Shown here: positions 9,182-37,077 of the stretch, one piece after another | Numbering within the stretch: position 1 is the stretch's first letter | Layout: the number at the start of each line of letters is the position of its first letter | Assembly (NCBI GenBank): GCA_019096065.1 | Contig: JAGUCH010000009.1 | Coordinates: 5,590,001-5,654,000 of the forward strand | DNA from: Paracyclopina nana | Lineage: Eukaryota > Arthropoda > Copepoda > Cyclopoida > Cyclopettidae | DNA: 64,000 bases | Reading direction: 5' to 3' | Position numbers and translations under genes: made by a program | The notes under the pieces: model-generated | The model's input: the letters and a program-made list of their open reading frames with translations, nothing else | Database searches by the model: none | What the model was told of the DNA's origin: nothing

Positions 9182-12100
9182 AACAGGGAATCTGCAAAAG
9201 ACAAGGGTATACGTGTAAGGAATGGCGTCTTCGATGTTTGCTTGTGCTCTCATGCACCCGAATCGCCAGTGGAGGCTGGCCAAGCAACGTCCTCTCAACT
9301 CCCAACAATGCAATGACCAACAACTACCCTGTCTAAATTCCGCGGTCCTTTTGCATTATTTATTTGCTGAAAAAACGACGCTCGCCCGCGCACGGTGTGT
9401 ATCGATAAAATAAGCCGAGACGTGCAACACCTGTTTGTCCCGGTCGTAATAAGTCCAATTTTTCCCTGTGGCCTCATGGCAAATCGATCTTTTGAGGCTG
9501 ACTTTTCTGTTTGGCAACCGCAAAGAAAACTGCCGATCATCGGTTGTTTACATTTGAATTTTTGGTGCGATCGTGCCTCAAATTTTCCGCCAAATCAAAC
9601 AGTCAGCGCGCCCGAGTGTAAACAAAGGCGAAAATAGCTTAGCCGGATGAAATTGAAGCAGCGACTCGGGGAGGAGAACTTTGTGACAGCAGCAGCCTCG
9701 AAATTAACATTAAATCAAGATGCCTTGATTTGATTAGCAGTTGGTAAGAATGGCTAGGATGATGATGATGATGATGGCATTTGTGTGCAAGCTGTGAATA
9801 ATTTGCCATAGAAATTCGAGCCGTCTCATTTACAAAGTTTGCTCAAATCTCATTCCAGTTAAGCCCACGCATGAGTTTTCTTTGTGTCTTTTTGCCACGA
9901 ATGAAATGATTATCGCGCGCAAGTTGGTTTTCGCTTGGCTTCCCCGACGGCAGCAGAGGCAAGTTAAAGAAGACAAATCGGAGGAAATTCGGTGGACTCC
10001 CACCAATTTTCGGGGATCCTTGGCATTGTTGGACCTCTTGGCTACAAAAACTTTATTGGCATTGTTGAAGGTGAACAACGAACTGCCGATCAATCCATGT
10101 CCAATTTGCGGCTCAACGAGATTGGCGTCCGTAGTTGCTACTCTTTCATCCTTACTCCCGCTCAATTTGTCAAGATGAGGAGCAACTTTCTGGGATCCCA
10201 GGGAAGAGGCAGCTGCAAAAAAATGCTGCCTGATCGAAGCCTGTGATTTTAATCAGACTCCTTTTTCCGCGCCATCAGTCTGGTTGGTCAATTAGCCGAC
10301 GAAGGGTGACAGCTTTCATTTTGCACCACACACCACCATAGCACTTTCCCTCCTTAAAGGTATGTGCAGTTGGAATTCTCATGCGTCGACCTTAATTTAA
10401 AGCCGCTATTCCTTGCGCATTGAATTGCTGCGCCTCTACTCACTATATGTAGCCTAGACGTGTGAGCAACTCCAGAAAGCTGCTAAGAGAAAAGTGAGGC
10501 TCTGTCAAAGGAGATGTACATATGTTTGCAACAACGTTAGGAGCCATTAAAGCCCTATTTCCGCCGCCTTTCACCCACAGAATGCCTTTCTTGAGCGGCT
10601 TGTGCATGCAAAAGCAGCTTTTCGATGATGACAATTTCTTTTTGCGTGCGGGCAGAGGAGGATTCAAATTCTGTTTGGGCTTCGTACTTCACACAATCTC
10701 TCTCGCGGGAAATACACACTTTTAAAGCTTCGTTTACCGGAGCGCCGAAGAGTCCTGTTCAGCCTTAATTTCCAGTTGAGGCCGCCACGGTGTGCACTTA
10801 GGCACGAAAACAGTTTTTATAGCTCCTGGATGCACGTCAACTCGATTTATGACGAGAGATCTCATTGATTTTCCCTGCTCTGCGAGCGAATTGAAAAAAG
10901 GGGGTTTAGAAAGCCTCTCGATCCACCTACGTACGTTGCTGCACAACAAACATTCTGGTAGCAAAGGTGGCATCGCTTTCAAAAACACCGCATACTAGGT
11001 TTCTTCTTCACATCCCAGCTCTAATCAAAACAACTGCAATATTCCCGAGAGAAAGGACACACATCCTACTTCTCCTTCTCCTGCTCGTATCACTACATTT
11101 TCCAATGGTTGAGGCTCATATCGCAACCAAGGCAATGGAAGCTATTAGGTGTGGTGGCAACGATCTAAAAACACTCCCTACGGCTGTGCCACGCGCGCAC
11201 GCCGAGGGGTAAATGCAAACTTTGTGTGCCAGTTGTGGTGGCCATGGCTCTTAATTTCAGCATTCAGTCAGTAGTGGGCTTTATCAAGAAATTCGCCTTC
11301 AACTAGCTAGCACGAATGGTATGTCAGTTTGTTGTAGACAAGTACACACACCACGCAGAAGGAGTAGGAGGCGGAAAAGTTAGCTTGAATTGCATTTTTG
11401 AGGTTTTCTTCCTCCTCGCGTGTTTTCTTCTTGTTGGTTTTGTACTATGGTTGCAGTCTCGCATCTCTATTTACCTTGATGTTTAGCCTTTTGATCCCCT
11501 TGCTTGGCCGTTCTTTGTTATGAATCAGGGCCGCCCACAAACATGTTTGTCCAGAAATGTTACAACTTCTTCCTTCCCCCATCGTCATCAAATTCTTTTT
11601 TTGCGCCAAACATGGCGGCATTCTATCAATTTCAAGTCTTTTTATGCATCTCTCAAGCTGGCTGTCATTACTGCTTTCCAGAGCGGTTTTATGATGTTTT
11701 GCATGATTGTAAAAGGCACTAATGGAAAGGCTGTAAACGGATACAGCTCCCAGGATAGCTGTTGTTGCTACTGCTACTTCTACGATACTACACTATCGTG
11801 AGTTAAATGCAAGTCCCCCAATTGGATGGAATTTAGGATCATGATCGCCATGCTTCTCTTCCCCCTTTTTTCTTTGGTTTGTACTATCTGATCTGAGGCT
11901 ATTCATTTTTAGCAGCGCAGTACGGCCGAGTGTGTGTATTATAAGCTGAATATCCTTTTGAGAACGAGGCTCCTTTGAGCACTTCATATGTGTGGCATAT
12001 CTATCGATATGATTGAGCCTCACTTCAAGCCCGTTTTGAGGGAGAGGGGGCCGCAAAAAATGTATGGTTATGTGGTCGTTTTTTCGCTCGAGGCTTTCCA

Positions 12101-25900: not shown

Positions 25901-26991
25901 CTAGCTCAATAATCACGAAATGAAGGACCACCACATATATGCATATGGTCTACCTCCGATATAAGTGAAAACTGATAAATTGATATTACAGAGTTGGAAA
26001 TGTCATTATAGCACTGTGCTTTCTAATGCTTTCATTTCTTGCTCCGAATGAAGTATCATCTTCTTTCACAGCAGGCTGACAGTAAATGTTTTTCCTTATT
26101 CCAGCCATTTTTTACCGGCTTAGAAGAGCAATTATTATTTGTAATTGCTCGCCATGGAGATCTCCTTGATCCAAGCACATATCTGGTGTTATATATACAA
26201 TCACGAATCATCTGGCGAGCAAAAGAGACCGGTCAGCTTTTCTTGACATTCAATTAGGTTGATGATCATGTCGTGCTTTAGCCCCCTGCTCCGGCCGCGA
26301 CTGGCTCAAGATATGACAAGCGAAACATGTGAGGCCAAAGAAAAAAAAGCCATGGAAAAATACCAATAAGCAATTATCGTGAAATCTTCTTTTCCCTCCA
26401 GTCAAATTGGATCCTTTCAAGCCCGATTGCTCCCAATTTTTCGGTTGCAGCTTAGGACCTTCCACGATCAATTTCAGCCTTCATATCTGATTCATTTATG
26501 CTCTGACCTCATTGTAGTAGCACCTCAGTTTCGAAAGCCATGCAGCCAGTGAAGTAGAGCTGAATATCTTCCAGACTTTCCTGTCATGATGGCACGTGGC
26601 AGCTAGCGGTGCATTTTGGCACCGATTGCGAGTCTTCCTTCTGCTCTCCATATCATTCAGGTGCATTAGTGTATCCATGTTGTTGAAAAGAATGATTTTC
26701 AATCTCTCTGATTGGATGCACTATATTATTCATCTCATCGTGTATAATGCTCCAAATCCTTCTTGGCCCTGATAAATGAATGGCCACTGCTGCTGGCCTC
26801 TTCTTCTTCTTCCTCAGCGGTTGTACGTGTGCGAGCTTTCACTCGCTCGATCGGCTAAACAAACTGGGAACATCATCATTCATAATTCCATGTGGGATAG
26901 TTAGGAGATCATCCGAGAACCTTTCTCACGATGATGCCTTATATGTTTATATTCTTGTTATACTGCCTACGCGTGGATATACTATTAAGAG
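22961..26991. other. Gene-free interval between brat promoter and transposon
   Basis: No open frame shows a recognisable domain or usable splice sites. It holds simple repeats, including an alternating GC tract at 24864-24879. The right edge is the insertion point of the transposon at 26992. Confidence 0.5.
24864..24879. repeat. Alternating (GC)n tract
   Basis: An alternating purine-pyrimidine GC run flanked by TT and ATGTG, in non-coding DNA. It is the second such tract in the window. Confidence 0.8.
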
Positions 26992-27003
26992 CCCCACAAA
27001 ACA
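26992..27003 (+). repeat. Left terminal inverted repeat
   Basis: CCCCACAAAACA, identical in reverse complement to 35889-35900. It is preceded by ...TTAAGAG, giving AG directly outside the terminus. Confidence 0.85.
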
Positions 27004-27143
27004 CGAAAGTTTGCCTAAAGTTTACTTAATGGCTTTTAGTGTGTGAAGTTAAGTAAGCTTTAACCCCTCAAAACAGTGACGCACAACCAATGAAAGTATT
27101 TGTTATAAGTTGCTTTTACGGTACGGTTAAGTAAACTTTAAAT
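27004..27143. repeat. Left subterminal repeat zone
   Basis: Contains AAAGTTTACTTAA, GTTAAGTAAGCTTTAA (27048-27063) and GTTAAGTAAACTTTAA (27126-27141), variants of one motif in both orientations. In CACTA-type elements such subterminal repeats are binding sites for the element's DNA-binding proteins; that role is inferred here. Confidence 0.6.
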
Positions 27144-27290
27144 AGGCGTACATTTAACTATTTCCTATAATTTTTTATTTGTTGCACGCCTTATTTTAAG
27201 GGATTACCGAAAGTTTTACTAGACTTTATAAGTGTGTTGACGCAACCTTTAAAATGACTATAAAAGTTTGTATAAAGCCTGCTTTCGGGG

Positions 27291-27370
27291 TTGCTGCTGC
27301 TGCTGCTGCCCGGTTGCTGCTGCCGCGGTTGCTGCTGCTGTCGGGGTTGCTGCTGCTACTCCTGCTGCTC
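27291..27370. repeat. Imperfect (CTG)n / TTGCTGCTG microsatellite
   Basis: About 80 bases built from TTGCTGCTGC units interrupted by CCCGG, CCGCGG and TCGGGG. It lies between the left subterminal zone and the 3' end of the minus-strand gene, inside the transposon. The plus-strand Leu-rich open frame over it is a by-product of the repeat. Confidence 0.75.
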
Positions 27371-27912
27371 CCCGCTTATTTTTTTACTCCATTAATTGTA
27401 GTAACTTTTCCCAGTAGTATTCTCTTTATTAACTCTTATTGTGGTGTCGATATCATATACTTTATAGTAATTGAAATAGAGGAAATGCTGCTGATAATAC
27501 TGTTTAGGCAGCATGAGCTAGCTTATATCAAAATTCACATAGAAATTTTCACATCTTCATTTTTCACACCTCCTTGGTAATTTATCGTTGTTCTGCCCAT
27601 CATAGGTATCCGAAATGTTGTGTGTGTTGCCGATCGCTTTTATCAAACTTTTACTTCTGTTTCAGGTAAGTTGAGGGTTGAGCAGAACAGGTGTGGTATC
27701 GGGCGACTTAATCCAGTGACATAGATGCCTGCCTCTCCTCCTGCAGATAATATTATTGATGATTATACATTTGTTGTAAACTTGGATAATTTGATTATAA
27801 AGTATATAATAGGCATTAAAGAAATTGCGTTACTACTACTAAAAAAATGGATGCAAATGAAGTTTACTGCGTAACCAAGTTACGCAAGCCTTAAAGAAGC
27901 TTAAACTACTGT

Positions 27913-30900
27913 TCAATGATAAGGATCGGGGCTTACGGGAGGCTGAGGAGGGTCGTTGTTGGCATTGCCATCATCCATTGGCTCATCTTCAATCGGAGCA
28001 TCTTCAGTCGGAGCATCTTCATTGCCAGAGTCTTCGGCTTCTGCTTGAGGATCAATGTTCTGAGGAAGGTCTTCATGCTCGGACTCAGACTCGCTATCAC
28101 TCTCATCCTCTTCAAGGATTGGCTCTTCTTCCTCCTCAGTGGTTGTTTCCTCATCCTCCGTCTCCTCTTCATCATGAAGCTCTTCGACATGAGCAGCAGC
28201 ATCGTCCTTCTTCTTAGCCTGCCTTTTCTTGGCCTTGAACTTCATCTCGTTGAGCTTCTCCATCTGCTCGTTGAATTGTCTCTCGTCCTTAAAGTATTCG
28301 TTTTTTAGAGTTAAAAGGTTATTTAAGGCTGCCTAAATTTACTTACTCGTGATTCATCAATGGTGCTCGATTTGTTGGCAGGCCTGACATTTTTGAATTT
28401 TCTGTCAGCTTTCATTTGTCCTTTTGCAGATGTCCGAATGCGCTTCCTCTTCTTTTTTTGAGACTGGGTCTCAGCAACTGCTCCTCTCTTCCTAGATGGC
28501 CCAGGCTGCGGTTCTGCAACCATTTCCACGTCTTGCAAGTCTTGTGGATTGTGCAACTCGTACTGCTCATCCTCATCCTCATTGATGTTGGGGATAGCAG
28601 CCAGACCATCTTCCTCAAGGATAAGATTTTCATCCGCCACGTTGAACCGAGCCATTGCCTCTTTCATATCGAGTTGACCGCCATTAAGCAAATCTTCATA
28701 TTCTCGAGTTATCTATGTTGAAGTAGACTTTTAATACGACCGAACTATAACTTAATGTGTCAATACTTACTCCAACGGTGTGCGCATTCTCGTTGAACCG
28801 GTTCTTTTCCTTGGTGATCACCTCGAGTACTCTAATCAACTTGAACATGTCCAGTTCGCTAAGTGGCTCTTTGGCATCCTCGAGAGCGTCCTTGAAAATG
28901 ACGTCTGGGTCATCTGAGTAGGGCTTGTCCCGTGGCTTGGCTCCGAGTTCCTCATATTCGAGCTTTCGCTCAACAGGCTTCAACGAACGGATGTGAGCAT
29001 TGTATTCCTCTCGAGTCATGACATTCAGTTCCTCGGGAATGGCGTGCTGTACAAAAATCAAATAGTTATCCTAGCTTATAAGACTAACAAAAAGTTACTT
29101 ACTAGCATGTCTGCTCGGTAAGCCATGTCCATGTTGTACATGATGTCGCACATGTCCGCCACTGTGGGAGCATTTTCCAAAGCACATTTGACTAGCCGTT
29201 GCCTATCATTCGAGAACTTGTTTTGCATGGCCCCCTTGCAGGTTAGGTAGTTCTCCTTAATCGTAGTGCCCTTTAGGTCGTACACTTTGCGGACATATTG
29301 AATGACCGATCCGAGGACCCAAGCAGCAAACGGTTTCGGCAGTAGTCGCTTATAGTAGTGCATCTTCCTGATGCCACTATTCAAGTTACAATTATGAAAG
29401 GTTTAAATGAACATTATGTTAGAGTTTAGCGATTACTTACTTAGTCGTATCACCGAAGGCGACATGAGCAGCAGCAATTGGGCACAAGATATTCTTAATC
29501 ACTGTGTTCGCAATGGAACACATTAGGCTAGCCTCATCTAGGCATTCAAGCAGCGGCTGAAGGTAGTACAGTAAGTACTTGCGGCAAATGGAAGAGGCAA
29601 AGAAAATGTCGAATTGCTTCCCAACCATCTTGAATGGGATTATTTGCGCAATCATACCCACTGCCGTGGCTCGCCGTTCAGCTGCAGTCTCTCCCAACAA
29701 TTGGACTTTGTCGTCAATCTTCTTTTGACCCTTCGTGAATTCGTCCATTCTCTTGATGACAAGGTCAAGTTTGTTATCCAGTTTCTGTAAGGTTAAATGA
29801 CCGTGTAAGGATTACTAATGAACAATTTACTCGGAAATCTTACCGAAATTGCCTGCTTAGTCACCGGGTCAGTTGCCCTCTTGCTGCTTTCAGTGATTGC
29901 AGCTCTCTCATCCCTAATGGCCTCGCGAACCACTTTCGGCAAATCATTCTTAATAAACGCTTTCAGCGCGCTACCAAAGTCGACAGCAATTTGTTGGCCC
30001 TGTTGATCCATTCGTTCAATTAATTCCACTTTGATATTGTGGATGGCGGCAGAAACATCCAATGGCTGCATGCTGACAGGGGTGACAGGGCTGACGCTAG
30101 GACTAATATGAGCAGCAACAACTGCTCGCTCAAGAGTACTAGTTAGCAAATTTTCACCCTGAAGAGCGCCTTGAACTGGTGCAGTGACTTGCTTTCTTGG
30201 GCTAACCTTTGGGTCTCCTGCATGCTTACTTGACGGCATCGGAACTGTTGGTTCCTTTCGCTCAGTAGCCGACCGTGTGCTAGGTCCTGGCTGATCCGCA
30301 GTTGGCATCATGGTCAGTTGACGCACCAATGGCGGTGGCAAGAAGACTTCGTCATCGTTATCGTCATTAGTTGAAGATGAATTAGTCAATTCAACGACTT
30401 CAGGAGGAGGCGGAGGCGGAGGCGTAGTAGCTGCACCCTTCCTTTGAGCCATGGCCGCTCTGTGAGACAATACGAATTTTCCCGGAGTTTCAGAGTCCTT
30501 CTCCTTCTCCTGATTCTTGGTACTTTTAGTAGCCGTAGAAACTTTGGAGACTGTCGCAACAGAGGCTTGTTTGACAACCTTTGAGACGGTCACATTATGC
30601 CCTGGCGACTTCAGAGCTCCAAGGGTTTTCTTAACAGAAGGAGACTTTCCCTTGACAGTGCTCACAACAGGTTTGTAAGGAGCTGATGGGGTTCCCTTTT
30701 TGGGCGTCAATCTCTTAAGTTTCTTCTTTGGAGAACTCTTCTCGGCAACTTGAGATGATGGGCCAGCTTTTTGCGAAGCAATCTGAAAAACAAGCAATGT
30801 AAGCAACTTTGAAGTTTAATAAACGGTCAAATGATACATACCGCTTCCTCATCGTCCGTGGTCAATGGAAATGCCGTTGCTTTTCCACGCGTAGTGCGAG

Positions 30901-31450
30901 CTCCAAATTTGCAAACAATGAATTTTTGAGTTTTTGCATCTCGCTCCGGATAATTATAATCCTTGGCAACCTTTTCCAGCCAATTAAAGACCATGGTCTT
31001 CACATAATAGGATTGCCTCTGGTTTTGCTTCTGCTTCTTGAGGCACGCAGTCAACTCTTTGCAAAGGCTCGAAACAAAAGACGTTTCAACCCCTAGAACA
31101 AAATATTATTGTGAAGTAAAAGTTTACGTAAGGGATTACAAAACGTTTATACCTTCTTGAACCCTGGCGAAAATTGCCCAGCGGGTCGCAGTGGATTCGC
31201 CGATTGGAACCACATTCCGAAAAGCGATCCTTTGGTTCACCTCGAGTTGGAACTCCGGGTTGAAGCGATAAATGTTGGTAAACGTCTTTCCTTTCGAATC
31301 CTTGTAGTCGATGGGCACGCATTGAAATAATTGGTCGCCATCAATGTTGCAAATAATGACGCGATCGTAAACGGCGTGCTCGGTTGGGAACGTATTCAGT
31401 GCGGTCCTGATGATGTCGACCACATCAGGGTGTCCCTCCAGTTGAGACAT
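27913..31450 (-). CDS. Transposon accessory protein of unknown family
   Basis: Eight minus-strand exons: 31450-31153, 31092-30842, 30782-29844, 29784-29441, 29376-29103, 29046-28771, 28712-28347 and 28287-27913. All phases join without a stop, giving 1040 aa; introns are 56-64 nt. I do not recognise a family. Residues 1-183 look globular. Residues 184 to about 400 are a low-complexity Lys/Ser/Thr/Pro-rich linker with a run of seven Pro and a SUMO-interaction-like VVEL followed by acidic residues. About 400-530 is predicted helical. About 530-790 looks globular (FKMVGKQFDIFF, then PFAAWVLGSVIQYVRKVYDL). A basic stretch KKKRKRIR in exon 7 resembles a nuclear signal, and the C-terminal 100 residues are strongly acidic. 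By position and analogy with CACTA elements that carry a second, DNA-binding protein, I infer a TnpA-like partner of the transposase. That is a guess from context, not from homology. Confidence 0.75.
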
Positions 31451-32016
31451 ATCGAGGCTTTAACTAACCTTTTCGTCGTCTTCTAAGGTTTTTCAACTTT
31501 TCTTTTTCTACGTTAATGGCGTCTGAAAATGGCGGATGAATTGTGAAAACGGTTTTCGTTTGAAATTCTTGCCGACTGCCTGCACTGCTGCGTGGCTGGC
31601 TCGGCAGAACTAGCAGTATGCTTCTGCCCGGAGAATAGTTCGGCAGCACTGGCTGGCCGGCAGGCTTGTGCGACGGCAGCTTACCGTTTGCAGCAGCGAC
31701 AGCTGACACAATAAATTTTTCGTCAAATCCCAACGCGCAAAAGTGAATTCAAGAAAATCGATATTTTCGCGTATTGAGTGCAATTTCTACTGCAAATTTG
31801 TGATACAGAGGTGCTCGGATACGTAATAAGTAAGATTTTTGAGATTTTTTAAAGTTTCGGGCGTGGATGCAGCGTAAAAGTTAAAATAAAAATTACCTAA
31901 GGTGTGGCCGTAGCGAAATATTTTAACGAGTGACTATTTGACGAACAAATTTAACTTTCGTGGAAATTGCTTGTTTTAACATAATTTATTATTCTTTGCA
32001 GGTAAGATAGTTCGAA
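31451..32016. promoter_or_regulatory. Divergent intergenic promoter region of the transposon
   Basis: 566 bases separate the two divergent start codons, so both transposon genes are probably driven from here. ATTCTTTGCAG|GTAAG just before the transposase ATG (31991-32005) could be an acceptor for a 5' UTR intron. No TATA box was assigned with confidence. A minus-strand open frame at 31464-31733 is not supported as a gene. Confidence 0.5.
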
Positions 32017-35000
32017 ATGACGAGATCACGCCCCGCATTAACCCCGGCGCAAAGATCAAAGAAGAGGCGTGAATTACGTCGCCAGGATGCTGAATTCGCG
32101 GCATTTCTTGCAAAGGCGGGCCATGAAAACAATCCAGCACTTGTCATGGAGATGCGAAAAGTCGGCACGTCTTTCATAACGCCTGATGATCGTAATTTTC
32201 TTGAACGAAATCGGCGAATGATAAAAGAAGTTCGTGCACAACTTGGCAACTACTCGAGCGATGAAGCGACAGTCAAGGTTGAGAGTAATGACGACTCTTT
32301 GAGCCACGTTAGCGAAACCGATACGTCAGGTGAAACTGTACTCAACGTTTCGAACAATTGCGTTGAGTCAGGAAACGTGCTGGAAATGCCAACTCAGGCG
32401 GAATTGGCAGAACAAGAAGTTCTCACGAATTGTTCAAATAATTTCGTCGAGCCGGGCAACACGCTGGAGCTGCCAACGCAGGAAGAATTGGAGGAACAAG
32501 CAGTTCGCAGCAATGACGATGAACCTGAATCGCAGGTTTTCAACGAGACAAGAAGATCGACTTGTCGTGGCAATCTGCTTGCCATTCCGGAGTACGATCT
32601 TGACGCTGCAAATGATGAGCCTTCAATGGTCTTTCCCGCACCAAGATTTCAATACACGAACAGGGAGAGGATGGCGAGCATTATCAGCGAAGGTACTCGT
32701 TACCTCAATGAGAAGACAAGGCCTGCAGTTTTGAAGCCTTCAGATGGCCTTGAAGCCTTCAATAATTATCGCTCTGCCCCAGTTTACGAGCGAACACGGC
32801 CATCTTACGAACAGCCTGAGTATCTGTTTGCTGCGGATCCGAGTTATGTCAAACAACATGACGACTACTTCTTTGACAAATATTATCTACCTGCTAAAAA
32901 GGCAAGGGTTGCTGCTTGTGTTGAAGATGTCATGAATGCCGAGTTAAAGAATGATGCAAGTCAATACAACGAATCTCAGCGAGGGACTTTCTATGAGCGT
33001 CAAGAAAAAGAGGCGGAAGTGCGAAAGGAGGTCACTGAAGAAATCGTCGAGAATGATGATGACTTCATTTCGATCAATGAGGACGCTATTGTGGAAACAG
33101 CAAGAATGGCACGAAAGAGAAAGTTTGACTACACATTCCTCCAAAATGATGACGTTTACCAGTACGAACAGGATGAAGAACGTGACAATGGTGCACCAGC
33201 CGATGAGGAGGACGACAATGATGCCGACAATGAGGACGAAGACAATGAGCAGATCAGACTCATCTTAGGAACTGAACATGATGCCAATGATGATAATGAT
33301 GATGTGAGTTCTATTGATTTCCTCATTTATTTAAGGCTATGAAATAAACAAGTGATATGACATTTTGCAATATTTTAGGTTGAATTAAACTCATCTCAAA
33401 GTCAACAAGTCAACATTGAGGAGGACGAGGAAATTGAAAATTTCAGTGTTGATTTATCAGCACCAGAGACTCTTGGTTCGGATAATACGTTCTCGCAAAC
33501 ACAAGGAGACAACAACTACCATTTCAGCAGGTCAGAAAAATCGTACAAAGATGTATGCAACGAGTACTTGAAGGAGATGCAGCAACCGACTGTCAAGGCA
33601 AGGAATGACTACTTGGAGAGAACATTTCTGAGTGACTGCAGTAAGCTAAATTTAACTGAGCGTGCAAGCAAACTTATGTGGGACAAACAGCGTGTCGTAC
33701 GCAACTCGTTCCCATTCAATCGCGGACTGCAGAGCTATGCCACCATTCGCAGACGAATCCTGAAAATCACACCAAGAGTGACAATGAAGTATGAGTTGAG
33801 AAAAAGGAACGGTCCCCTATCTGATCGCATTTACTATAAGGGCGAGCACTACCCAGAGAGCAAATACCCAAGAAAGAAATACGAGACTTTATCGATCTGG
33901 ACGTACTCAAACCTAGATGAAGTCTACAACTTCCATCAACTCTTACATAAAGAACCAATAACTGAAGAACCTTACATGATCAGCTATGATTTCTGCATGG
34001 ATGGCGTTCCGTTGTCTGTCTCCGGAATCGACCAAATGACAATACTGTGCACTCGCTTTGCTGGTTGTGCAACAGTGTACACAAATGGAGTGTTCATTCA
34101 CAGAAAGCACAAGGAAACGTCGGTCTTGAAGATGTTGCAACTCATGATGCGTGATGCCTATGCAAAGTGCTTCTACTTACGGCACTTCATAGCTGACAGT
34201 CCCATGAGGGCTAAATTAAAGTGTATTAAAGGGCACACTGGGTTTTGCGCTTGCGATCGGTGTCTGGCATCGGGAGTCACGCTCAAGCGAAAAGCAAAAG
34301 AGGAGATGCATCGGAAAAGACAAAAAGAAGTGCGGGTTGATGATGATGGCGACGAGCCAACAGCCAAAAGGTCAAAATTTGATAAAAAAGACGATGATGA
34401 GAGGCGAGGAAGCACAGTGTTCTATCCTGCCAACACAGTTGGGATGGCTCGCAGAAGTCACAGTCAATTTCTAGACATCTACGATAAGATAACTGCTAAC
34501 GAAGGTAACAAACCGCTCTCAGAAAAGGTTACGTTCGGTGTCAAGGGAGTATCTGTCCTGATTGAAGATCCTGGGGTCGACATGGTGGAAACCTGCGATA
34601 TTGAGCCGTTCCACAATTTGGGACTTGGCGTATGCAAAAAAATTATTAACACCATTGTGCAGCCCAAGTCGGGACAAGAACAGTTCTCTCGAGCGAGCAA
34701 AGAGATTGTAGACACGTTTGATGAGGAGTGGAGCGAGCTTCAAATTCCGTGTGAATTCAACAGGCGGCCTCGTAAGATGGGAACTTCATTAATCCATTAC
34801 AAGGCAGAAGAATACATAAGTGTGGCCACTTGTGGATTTTTGGCTTTCTACCATGCTTTACCTGGCTTACAGCACAAGTTACACCGCCAAGTCTGGCTCT
34901 TGTTCACCTATCTCATGATGGCGGCATTACTGCCACAAAAAGAATACGACGCACTGCTAATGGCCGGAATTTGTCTGGAAAGTTTGCACAAAAACTTTTA

Positions 35001-35547
35001 TTACCTGTACGAACGCACTTTCAAAACCGTTAACTGTACGTACAACACTCACATATTCTACCACTTGCCAGAGGTGCGTCGAAAGAAGAGATTGGATGAA
35101 ATAAGTGCGGAACCGTTTGAGGCCAGCTTTCAATATATTAAAAAAATCATTACAAACAACACATGTTCCTTCAGCAAGACTTTGATGCAGAAATGCTTTA
35201 TAAACAAATTTTGCGATCACAAATGCCAACGGCGAGTCACAATATCAAGCAAAAACAGGATGTCCCGGTCATGCGACACATTGATATATGCTAGGCATCA
35301 AGGACGGAACGATTTCTTCGAGGTTGTTGAGGTTACGGATGATCATTACGTTTGTGAGCCGTTCACCACTGCTAGATACTTCAACGATGATATGCCGCTG
35401 CTGAACTACGACAAAATTGGTGTCCGCAGATTTATCTGCAAGAGAGAAAATGAGAAGGTTCAAATTCCTAAAGACGAAGTCGTGGGAAAAGGTGTGCGAT
35501 ACAGATCAATTCTCATCAATGTGTCATTTTCGACACTTCATATGTAA
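32017..35547 (+). CDS. Tnp2-type transposase
   Basis: Two exons, 32017-33303 and 33379-35547, are joined in phase 0 by a 75-nt intron (donor GTGAGT, acceptor ATTTTAG), giving 1151 aa. The first 430 residues are a basic N-terminal helix followed by a long acidic region with a tandem 23-residue duplication (codons 32353-32421 and 32437-32505, 28 codons apart). The catalytic half follows the Tnp2/CACTA pattern: MDGVPLSVSG (D637), then IADSPMRAKLKCIKGHTG (D702), then a CxC-x2-C cluster (CACDRC), a Lys/Asp-rich insert, FHNLGLGVCKKI, the IPCEFNRRPRK block, and AEPFEASFQYIKK (E1010 or E1007). D637, D702 and the Glu are the likely metal-binding triad by comparison with the family. It should cut and join at the element's terminal repeats in the nucleus. 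No frameshift or stop is seen. Confidence 0.88.
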
Positions 35548-35639
35548 CAATTATGACAGCTTTATCTAAAAGTTTATGGCAATAAAAATTATGAAGACAC
35601 GGACATATTTCGCATAACAAATCCTTCAAGAGACACACA

Positions 35640-35888
35640 AAATTGTTCTAGACGTACAAGCCAATTTAAAGGCTTAATAACTTATGATTAAAAGTTTGTT
35701 TAATGCCTAATTAAAGCTACAGTTTAACGTCTATTTAACGCCTAGAACAGTGACATTAACTTAACATTTTAAAGTTAACATAAACTTACAATTTAAAGTC
35801 TACTTAACGTAACGTTTCACAACCGTTAAATAAACTTTTCAGCTAAAGGCTGCAAAAAGTTTCAAAAGTCACTTTTAAAGTTTCAATT
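35640..35888. repeat. Right subterminal repeat zone
   Basis: AT-rich DNA after the transposase stop with repeated TTTAACG, CTACTTAACG, GTTAAATAAACTTTT and TTTAAAG-type words, many in inverted orientation relative to the left zone. Probable binding array for element-encoded proteins. Confidence 0.55.
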
Positions 35889-35900
35889 TGTTTTGTGGGG
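35889..35900 (-). repeat. Right terminal inverted repeat
   Basis: TGTTTTGTGGGG, the exact reverse complement of the left 12 bp. It is followed by AGATTAC, so AG lies directly outside, as on the left. Confidence 0.85.
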
Positions 35901-37077
35901 AGATTACATCCTGTAATTAATTATTATTATTGTTGTTGCTGCTGTTGCGGCCAAAAAGCAGAAGAAGCTTCTTCTGTCTTCATTTCCTGCCCTTGTTTCT
36001 CATATGTCCTCTTCCACATCACAGGCTTTCCAGCAGAGGATGAAAGCCAGCTCACTGTTGATCATCGTGGTGATCCTGCACTTGAGGAAGATGGGAGTTT
36101 AAAAAAGAGTGCGCTAAGAAGAGCGGAATGACATTTTCTTGGTGCAAAAGTACAAGCCGCCAAAAAAACTAAGCTTTTAAAAATGTTGCTTCATAATCTT
36201 CTTCGTGGGAAATATCTTTAAGATGAAGCAGTCCATTTGTTTTGCCGAATAAGTTAAACTTTATGCTTAACGCGAGCCCAAAAAAATTGCCTCGTTTCGC
36301 AAGACCAAAAAACGTCAACAAAACTCTTACTTCTGATTGGCTATTGCAAATTTGCACCTGATTTTGATTGGTCCACTAATGTCATGCCGCTCTTACATCG
36401 TCCAGCGTCTTTAGAGTGCACTTATATTGCTGTGGCCTCAGTTTGAGCGCTGTTATGCTCATTTTTACTTGAAGGTGCGCGTAAGGCTGTCAGTTTTTGC
36501 TGCGCGATACACATTAAACTCTCCGAGGGAATCAAAAAGTCGGATTATCCTTGAGTGAAAGCTTCTTCCCTCTAAGTGACTCGAGAGAGAAAAGAGGCTG
36601 CAACAAGGCTGATGTGCGAGGATGCTATAAGCACTAAATTCTCGAATTTATTAGCTGGCTGCACCAGCAGCCCCAAATTGCTGATCATCAGCGCCCATTA
36701 TACTCGAAAGCTAATGAAACAGCGCTAATGGATAGAGTGGACACCACTGGTTCATGGAAATTAGTGTAGTAGTTGTGTAGTGTTGACACAATTGGAAATT
36801 GGTCCTGACAAGAGCTTCCATCGGACACATAACAGAAGCTGTAGCATGCAGGCAATTGCTGCTAAACAACCTGAAAAGGATGAACAGATTGAATAGGAGG
36901 CCATCAATTTGCTCGCATTGATAGTGTCCAGTGCACAAATCGTATCTAGTTTTCTGGGGTGATCTATCTACAATGGATGATGGGGATGAGGACATCTATC
37001 CTTCAGTGGACAACAACAATACCATTTTCAAATACGCGGCCCTTTCATCTACAGCTGATTTATTGCATTAATGTACC

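Follow-up and report, generated by a model that had tools for sequence, protein, structure and literature searches.

The window analyzed here, a 64,000-nucleotide stretch of the genome of the copepod Paracyclopina nana (contig JAGUCH010000009.1; C9:5590001-5654000), contains a structurally intact DNA transposon of 8,909 bp at positions 26992-35900. Perfect 12-bp terminal inverted repeats (TIRs; CCCCACAAAACA) lie at 26992-27003 and 35889-35900, and the element is flanked by a 2-bp target site duplication (TSD), AG. An initial annotation of the window had placed an intact 8.9-kb transposon with two divergent, multi-exon genes between exactly these coordinates, and this description is borne out. 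Gene A, on the plus strand, has 2 predicted exons encoding 1,151 residues without an internal stop. Gene B, on the minus strand, has 8 predicted exons from 31450 to 27913 and encodes 1,040 residues in a homology-guided model (an earlier model, made without such guidance, had 1,032 residues and a different last intron). The features of the element are as follows.

26990..26991, no strand: TSD AG, left copy (a 2-bp TSD is present in 18 other loci too)
26992..27003, plus strand: left TIR, CCCCACAAAACA
27004..27290, plus strand: left subterminal region with short repeats of the AAACTTT/AAGTTTA type (moderate; 7-mer p 0.02, 8-mer p 0.135)
27913..28287, minus strand: gene B exon 8, acidic tail and C-terminal PPVSP motif, including the stop codon
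28347..28712, minus strand: gene B exon 7
28771..29046, minus strand: gene B exon 6
29103..29376, minus strand: gene B exon 5, in the conserved core; its length is 274 nt in 16 of the 20 copies modelled
29441..29784, minus strand: gene B exon 4, conserved core
29844..30782, minus strand: gene B exon 3, coding for the weakly conserved linker
30842..31092, minus strand: gene B exon 2, second half of the N-terminal conserved region
31153..31450, minus strand: gene B exon 1, with the start codon (ATG) at 31450, N-terminal conserved region (first half)
31451..32016, no strand: gap of 566 bp between the start codons of genes A and B
32017..33303, plus strand: gene A exon 1
33379..35547, plus strand: gene A exon 2, putative catalytic part, 722 residues, including the stop codon
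34000..34002, plus strand: first proposed catalytic Asp (D208 in the exon-2 frame, D637 in the protein), motif DGVPLS, invariant in 18/18
34195..34197, plus strand: proposed catalytic Asp 2, D273 and D702, motif IADxPxR[AS]K, invariant in 18/18
34252..34263, plus strand: C(2)C motif, C292 and C295 of the exon-2 frame, invariant in 18/18
35050..35064, plus strand: H(3)H motif, H558 and H562 of the exon-2 frame, invariant in 18/18
35119..35121, plus strand: proposed catalytic Glu, E581 and E1010, motif SAEPFE, invariant in 18/18
35550..35888, minus strand: right subterminal region, short repeats as in the left one
35889..35900, minus strand: right TIR, reverse complement of CCCCACAAAACA
35901..35902, no strand: TSD AG, right copy

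The two-gene arrangement is the standard of a large family in this genome, with dozens of copies. Gene B was found upstream of and divergent from gene A in all 21 loci read (the window and 20 others; at L037, only the start of gene B falls inside the stretch read). Searches of the genome (91.95 Mb in 10 contigs) gave 109 matches that merged into at least 62 transposase loci, a lower bound in which 62 of 242 candidates were scored. Within 9.5 kb upstream of the transposase, a first exon of gene B was detected in 40 of these 62 listed loci, where 0.43 would be expected by chance, and the orientation was divergent in all 40 and same-strand in none. The divergent layout, which the initial annotation had called unusual for a CACTA-like element, is the rule in this genome. 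In total, 67 gene B loci were found, 40 of them used in pairs with a transposase and 27 remaining. One gene B exon lying downstream of a transposase proved to be part of the next element in a tandem pair. Two transposases arranged in tandem on one strand of C8 (C8:4369509-4371320 and C8:4376111-4377928) lie about 6.6 kb from each other, each with its own gene B. Distances of A and B are strongly correlated across 16 copies (Mantel r 0.96, with 0 of 5,000 permutations as high), implying that the two genes travelled as a unit. The 566 bp between their start codons (31451-32016) is presumably a shared divergent promoter, as the layout suggests.

The ends of the element recur elsewhere in the genome, as would be expected of a transposon. 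They were analyzed in 22 loci, comprising the window, 20 stretches containing transposase relatives, and one deletion derivative. Both ends could be located in 19 of the 22. All 19 carry a TSD of 2 bp and none has a 3-bp match (18 of 18 loci in the comparison, with L021 added by eye), and this recurrence of the ends rules out single-copy host sequence. The duplicated dinucleotides include AG, TG, TA, TT, CA, CT, AC, TC, AT, GG, AA, and GA, so the target is not fixed; TA-specific insertion is ruled out, TA accounting for only 4 of the 19. Two of the calls have particularities: L022 has two candidate right ends 5 bp apart, of which the inner one was chosen (giving TG/TG), and the left end of L021 is a variant, CCCCAG. 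The terminal motif by itself is common enough in the window to be rejected as proof (there are 9 occurrences of CCCCACMARAA, allowing at most 1 mismatch, against 4.4 expected; as many as 9 were seen in 5 of 100 shuffles), and the ends were accepted because the motif recurs on both sides together with a TSD.

The subterminal motif arrays proposed in the initial annotation are moderately supported. The 650 terminal bases contain 10 copies of AAACTTT, and the best 7-mer departs from shuffled sequence (p 0.02), but the best 8-mer does not (p 0.135), and with such mixed statistics the arrays were rejected as strong independent evidence. Just inside the left end (27281-27370) lies a short repeat rich in CTG/GTT, with similar stretches on C2, C5, and C8. 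For three of the 22 loci, the boundaries were incomplete. L032 and L033 have a left end, and no right end was found within the 10.6 kb read. An additional open reading frame that by eye resembles gene A exon 1 was seen downstream of the transposase in L032+L043 (~9,540-10,400) and in L033+L044 (from ~9,720), and the L032/L033 subfamily may represent a larger element or a rearranged gene A. L037 (C7:1413000-1422900) is interrupted and neither end was found; about 5 kb separates its matches to exons 1 and 2 of gene A, apparently owing to a nested insertion.

Gene A was aligned across 18 of the 21 loci, leaving out the broken copies L030, L037, and L038. D208, D273, C292-x2-C295, H558-x3-H562, and E581 of the exon-2 frame are invariant in all 18. 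In 16 of 21 loci, the exon-2 frame itself has no interruption; the five with a broken frame are L021, L028, L030, L037, and L038. The available sections of a published account of the CMCT group (EnSpm/Mirage/Chapaev/Transib) give as its signature two D and one E, with the motifs C(2)C and H(3-4)H lying after the second D and before the E (PMC12730594). This D-D-C(2)C-H(3)H-E order is present in all 18 rows, in agreement with the Tnp2-type assignment made initially, and suggests that gene A encodes a DDE enzyme (D637, D702, E1010) with a zinc-type C(2)C/H(3)H pair. As far as the group has been described in those sections, its TSDs measure 2-5 bp, within which the 2 bp found here falls, and its ends are CA..TG in most cases, though not obligatorily, whereas the element has CCCCAC..GTGGGG.

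In its ends, the element is close to animal CACTA-related (TRC) elements. Their reported hosts are Schistosoma, Tribolium, and Aedes, and they are described, in the available sections of the original report, as having CCC ends and 2-bp direct repeats (DeMarco et al. 2006, PMC1636069); in Schistosoma, the repeats were found in 7 of 14 copies. The present family shares with them the CCC ends (also in the CCCCAG variant of L021), the 2-bp repeats at insertion, the DG and CxxC motifs, and a near-match to [LVI]-D-x-[LM]-H-x3-L-G, and the Aedes element is similar in its 10-bp inverted repeats and its size of 9.2 kb. SmTRC1, according to the same sections, differs in being 4.5 kb long with 54-bp TIRs and one open reading frame of 1,683 bp with alternatively spliced transcripts; the two D residues are 65 residues apart here and 80 in TRC, and those sections describe no second, divergent gene (PMC1636069). 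The observation that the termini are CCCCAC and not the plant-type CACTA/CACTG was confirmed, but its use as the mark of an undescribed lineage is weakened, since CCC ends were already published for animal TRC elements in 2006. As to plant-type CACTA, Transposase_21 (PF02992) matches none of the 18 transposases; a genome search with it returned nothing, as did its controls. CNEST of Cryptococcus, as far as its description was available, is alike in having a CMC transposase, placed in a clade with unclassified animal transposases, and a 2-bp TSD, and differs in that this TSD is TA and its TIR starts with CACGG, the target of the window family being unfixed (PMC12810828). Pattern searches of IMG/VR and GTDB contigs gave 12 and 71 matches, none confirmed as relatives, in sets that may omit host-genome records. 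Altogether, the element is most aptly described as a TRC-like animal member of the CMC group that carries a divergent partner gene, an assignment drawn from its motifs and ends.

The partner protein has a recognizable order, in which a conserved N-terminal region some 180 residues long is followed by a linker with weak conservation, a conserved core at about residues 520-790, and an acidic tail. Copies of gene B were modelled under the guidance of homology to the window gene, and the introns are supported by the repetition of exon lengths among models (as with exon 5). In 15 of 20 models, the last 31 residues contain a PxVSP motif (27916-27942 in the window), which may be a docking site, for example for a host factor. 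No description of such a partner gene, or of a two-gene CACTA-like element, was found in the open-licence papers searched, and this conserved divergent gene looks like a new part of the element.

Several observations weigh against the classification and the two-gene interpretation. Pfam returned 0 families for exon 2 of the window and, for the transposase relatives, scattered matches in one or two members, none credible (best E 0.0029); the best hit of a PDB profile search with the transposase was an interleukin receptor (E 0.084), also not credible. Membership in CMCT therefore relies on the motifs and their order and not on scored homology. As far as the TRC motifs are defined in the published sections available, the strict form of motif I (DG...[FY]...WP), present in most TRCs, is found in 0 of 18 rows, the DG being kept and the WP absent, and the strict form of motif A, [LVI]-D-x-[LM]-H-x3-L-G, likewise in 0 of 18, with 17 of 18 matching a relaxed form ([DE], [LMF]). 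Hence, and because Transposase_21 is absent, the element was filed neither as plant-type CACTA nor as a strict TRC. The role proposed for gene B is tentative: in searches with 9 of 17 aligned models, Pfam matches to its two conserved regions were confined to single members (best E 0.0023 and 0.0039), and PDB yielded no credible match. Moreover, single-sequence searches found no gene B upstream in 22 of the 62 listed transposase loci, all of them more diverged, and a paralogous empty site was looked for and none was found.

Some copies of the family moved very recently. The left 289 bp of the window element match a single further locus in the genome, at 100% identity, and this locus is a 1,459-bp internally deleted copy with its own TSD, GA. 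The derivative retains 1,406 bp from the left end, differing at 1 position, and 57/57 bp of the right end, joined at a 4-bp overlap. The claim of a single copy holds for the full-length element, of which genome searches found no other. Elsewhere in the genome, the next-closest transposase has 81% protein identity to that of the window, and for 27281-32016 the longest match besides the derivative is 68% identical over ~1.2 kb. Near-identical full-length copies were found in a sister subfamily: the 8.3-kb elements L038, L039, and L040, on C1, C2, and C5 with TSDs TC, AA, and TA, are 99.84, 99.86, and 99.99% identical in pairwise comparisons, and the exon-2 proteins of L039 and L040 are 35% identical to that of the window. 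L038 and L040 differ by one 1-nt gap only, and this trio represents the youngest full-length copies found. The suggestion that the element is still, or was recently, mobile is therefore well founded for the family.

Young insertions stand beside old lineages. The two halves of the TSDs show 0 differences at 38 positions (19 loci), which places an upper 95% bound of ~7.6% on per-site divergence. Comparison of the window with L021 gave, for gene A exon 2, 82% protein identity with a proportion of synonymous differences (pS) of 0.90, which is saturated, and a nonsynonymous proportion (pN) of 0.12, and for gene B 59% identity, pS 0.79 and pN 0.28. Seven further pairs are alike, pS ranging from 0.70 to 0.91 over all sixteen comparisons (8 pairs, both genes). 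With synonymous sites at or near saturation, the only ratio of nonsynonymous to synonymous substitution (dN/dS) obtained was 0.065, for gene B of L030/L031, itself near saturation. Nonsynonymous change is low in both genes across the 8 pairs, and both appear to be under strong purifying selection. The lineages are old, as synonymous saturation indicates, and the insertions are young and mostly intact.

It is quite possible that the many lineages represent repeated horizontal arrivals and not long vertical persistence in the species line. Saturation between lineages whose insertions have intact TSDs, and an uninterrupted gene A exon 2 in most loci, fit repeated arrival. However, long vertical persistence of low-copy active lineages would yield the same picture, and IMG/VR and GTDB gave no relatives, the eukaryote search having covered this genome.

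Taken together, the element is very probably an autonomous cut-and-paste CMCT transposon with TRC-like ends, in which gene A would supply the DDE transposase, gene B a co-moving partner, and internally deleted copies would be mobilized in trans. The transposase would cut at the CCCCAC ends and insert with a 2-bp stagger; the duplication is observed, and the motifs point to the catalysis. Reading away from gene A from a shared central region, gene B would encode a partner that moves and evolves with the transposase. Its product may bind DNA or bridge the ends, in the manner of TnpA of En/Spm or the RAG2-like protein of ProtoRAG, and mobilization in trans is suggested by the single deleted copy. 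En/Spm of maize (TnpA, TnpD) and ProtoRAG each use two proteins, one catalytic and one helper. The present family resembles them in its two-protein design and differs in layout and in TSD length, which is 3 bp in En/Spm and 5 bp in ProtoRAG. It is rather doubtful that the family goes further and forms an undescribed superfamily-level CMC branch, an obligate two-component system with gene B as an essential transpososome subunit without known relatives, retained over synonymous-saturation time, and with dozens of deeply split lineages active together in one 92-Mb genome.

Gene B could also be a passenger with a protective function, such as antagonism of silencing or repair, that serves the element from outside the transposition machinery. 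This would accord with the lack of any detectable relation of its two conserved regions to known DNA-binding domains and with the PxVSP motif as a possible host-factor docking site, and the 22 listed loci in which no gene B was detected leave room for passenger loss. A passenger should, however, show more frequent loss or exchange than is seen for a gene that tracks gene A so closely and, in 40 of 62 listed loci, keeps the same position, and this role is unlikely. That the elements are extinct, or are domesticated host genes merely keeping transposon ends, is very improbable: strong purifying selection on both genes and the single occurrence of the exact full-length window element would fit, but an extinct fossil is rejected by the deletion derivative and by copies that are almost identical yet occupy separate sites with TSDs of their own, and the intact duplications of all 19 loci speak against it as well.

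In the neighborhood of the element, adjoining genes include those for WWC1-type and NHL-repeat proteins, and an Rfam scan of the window gave no match.

The RAG recombinase derives from the same wide transposase group and likewise acts together with a second protein. Another two-protein design within CMC, present in many intact copies, would allow the question of why such transposases acquire helper proteins to be addressed in an independent system. Moreover, old lineages represented by young, mostly intact insertions bear on how DNA transposons persist, whether by horizontal transfer or by quiet vertical survival.

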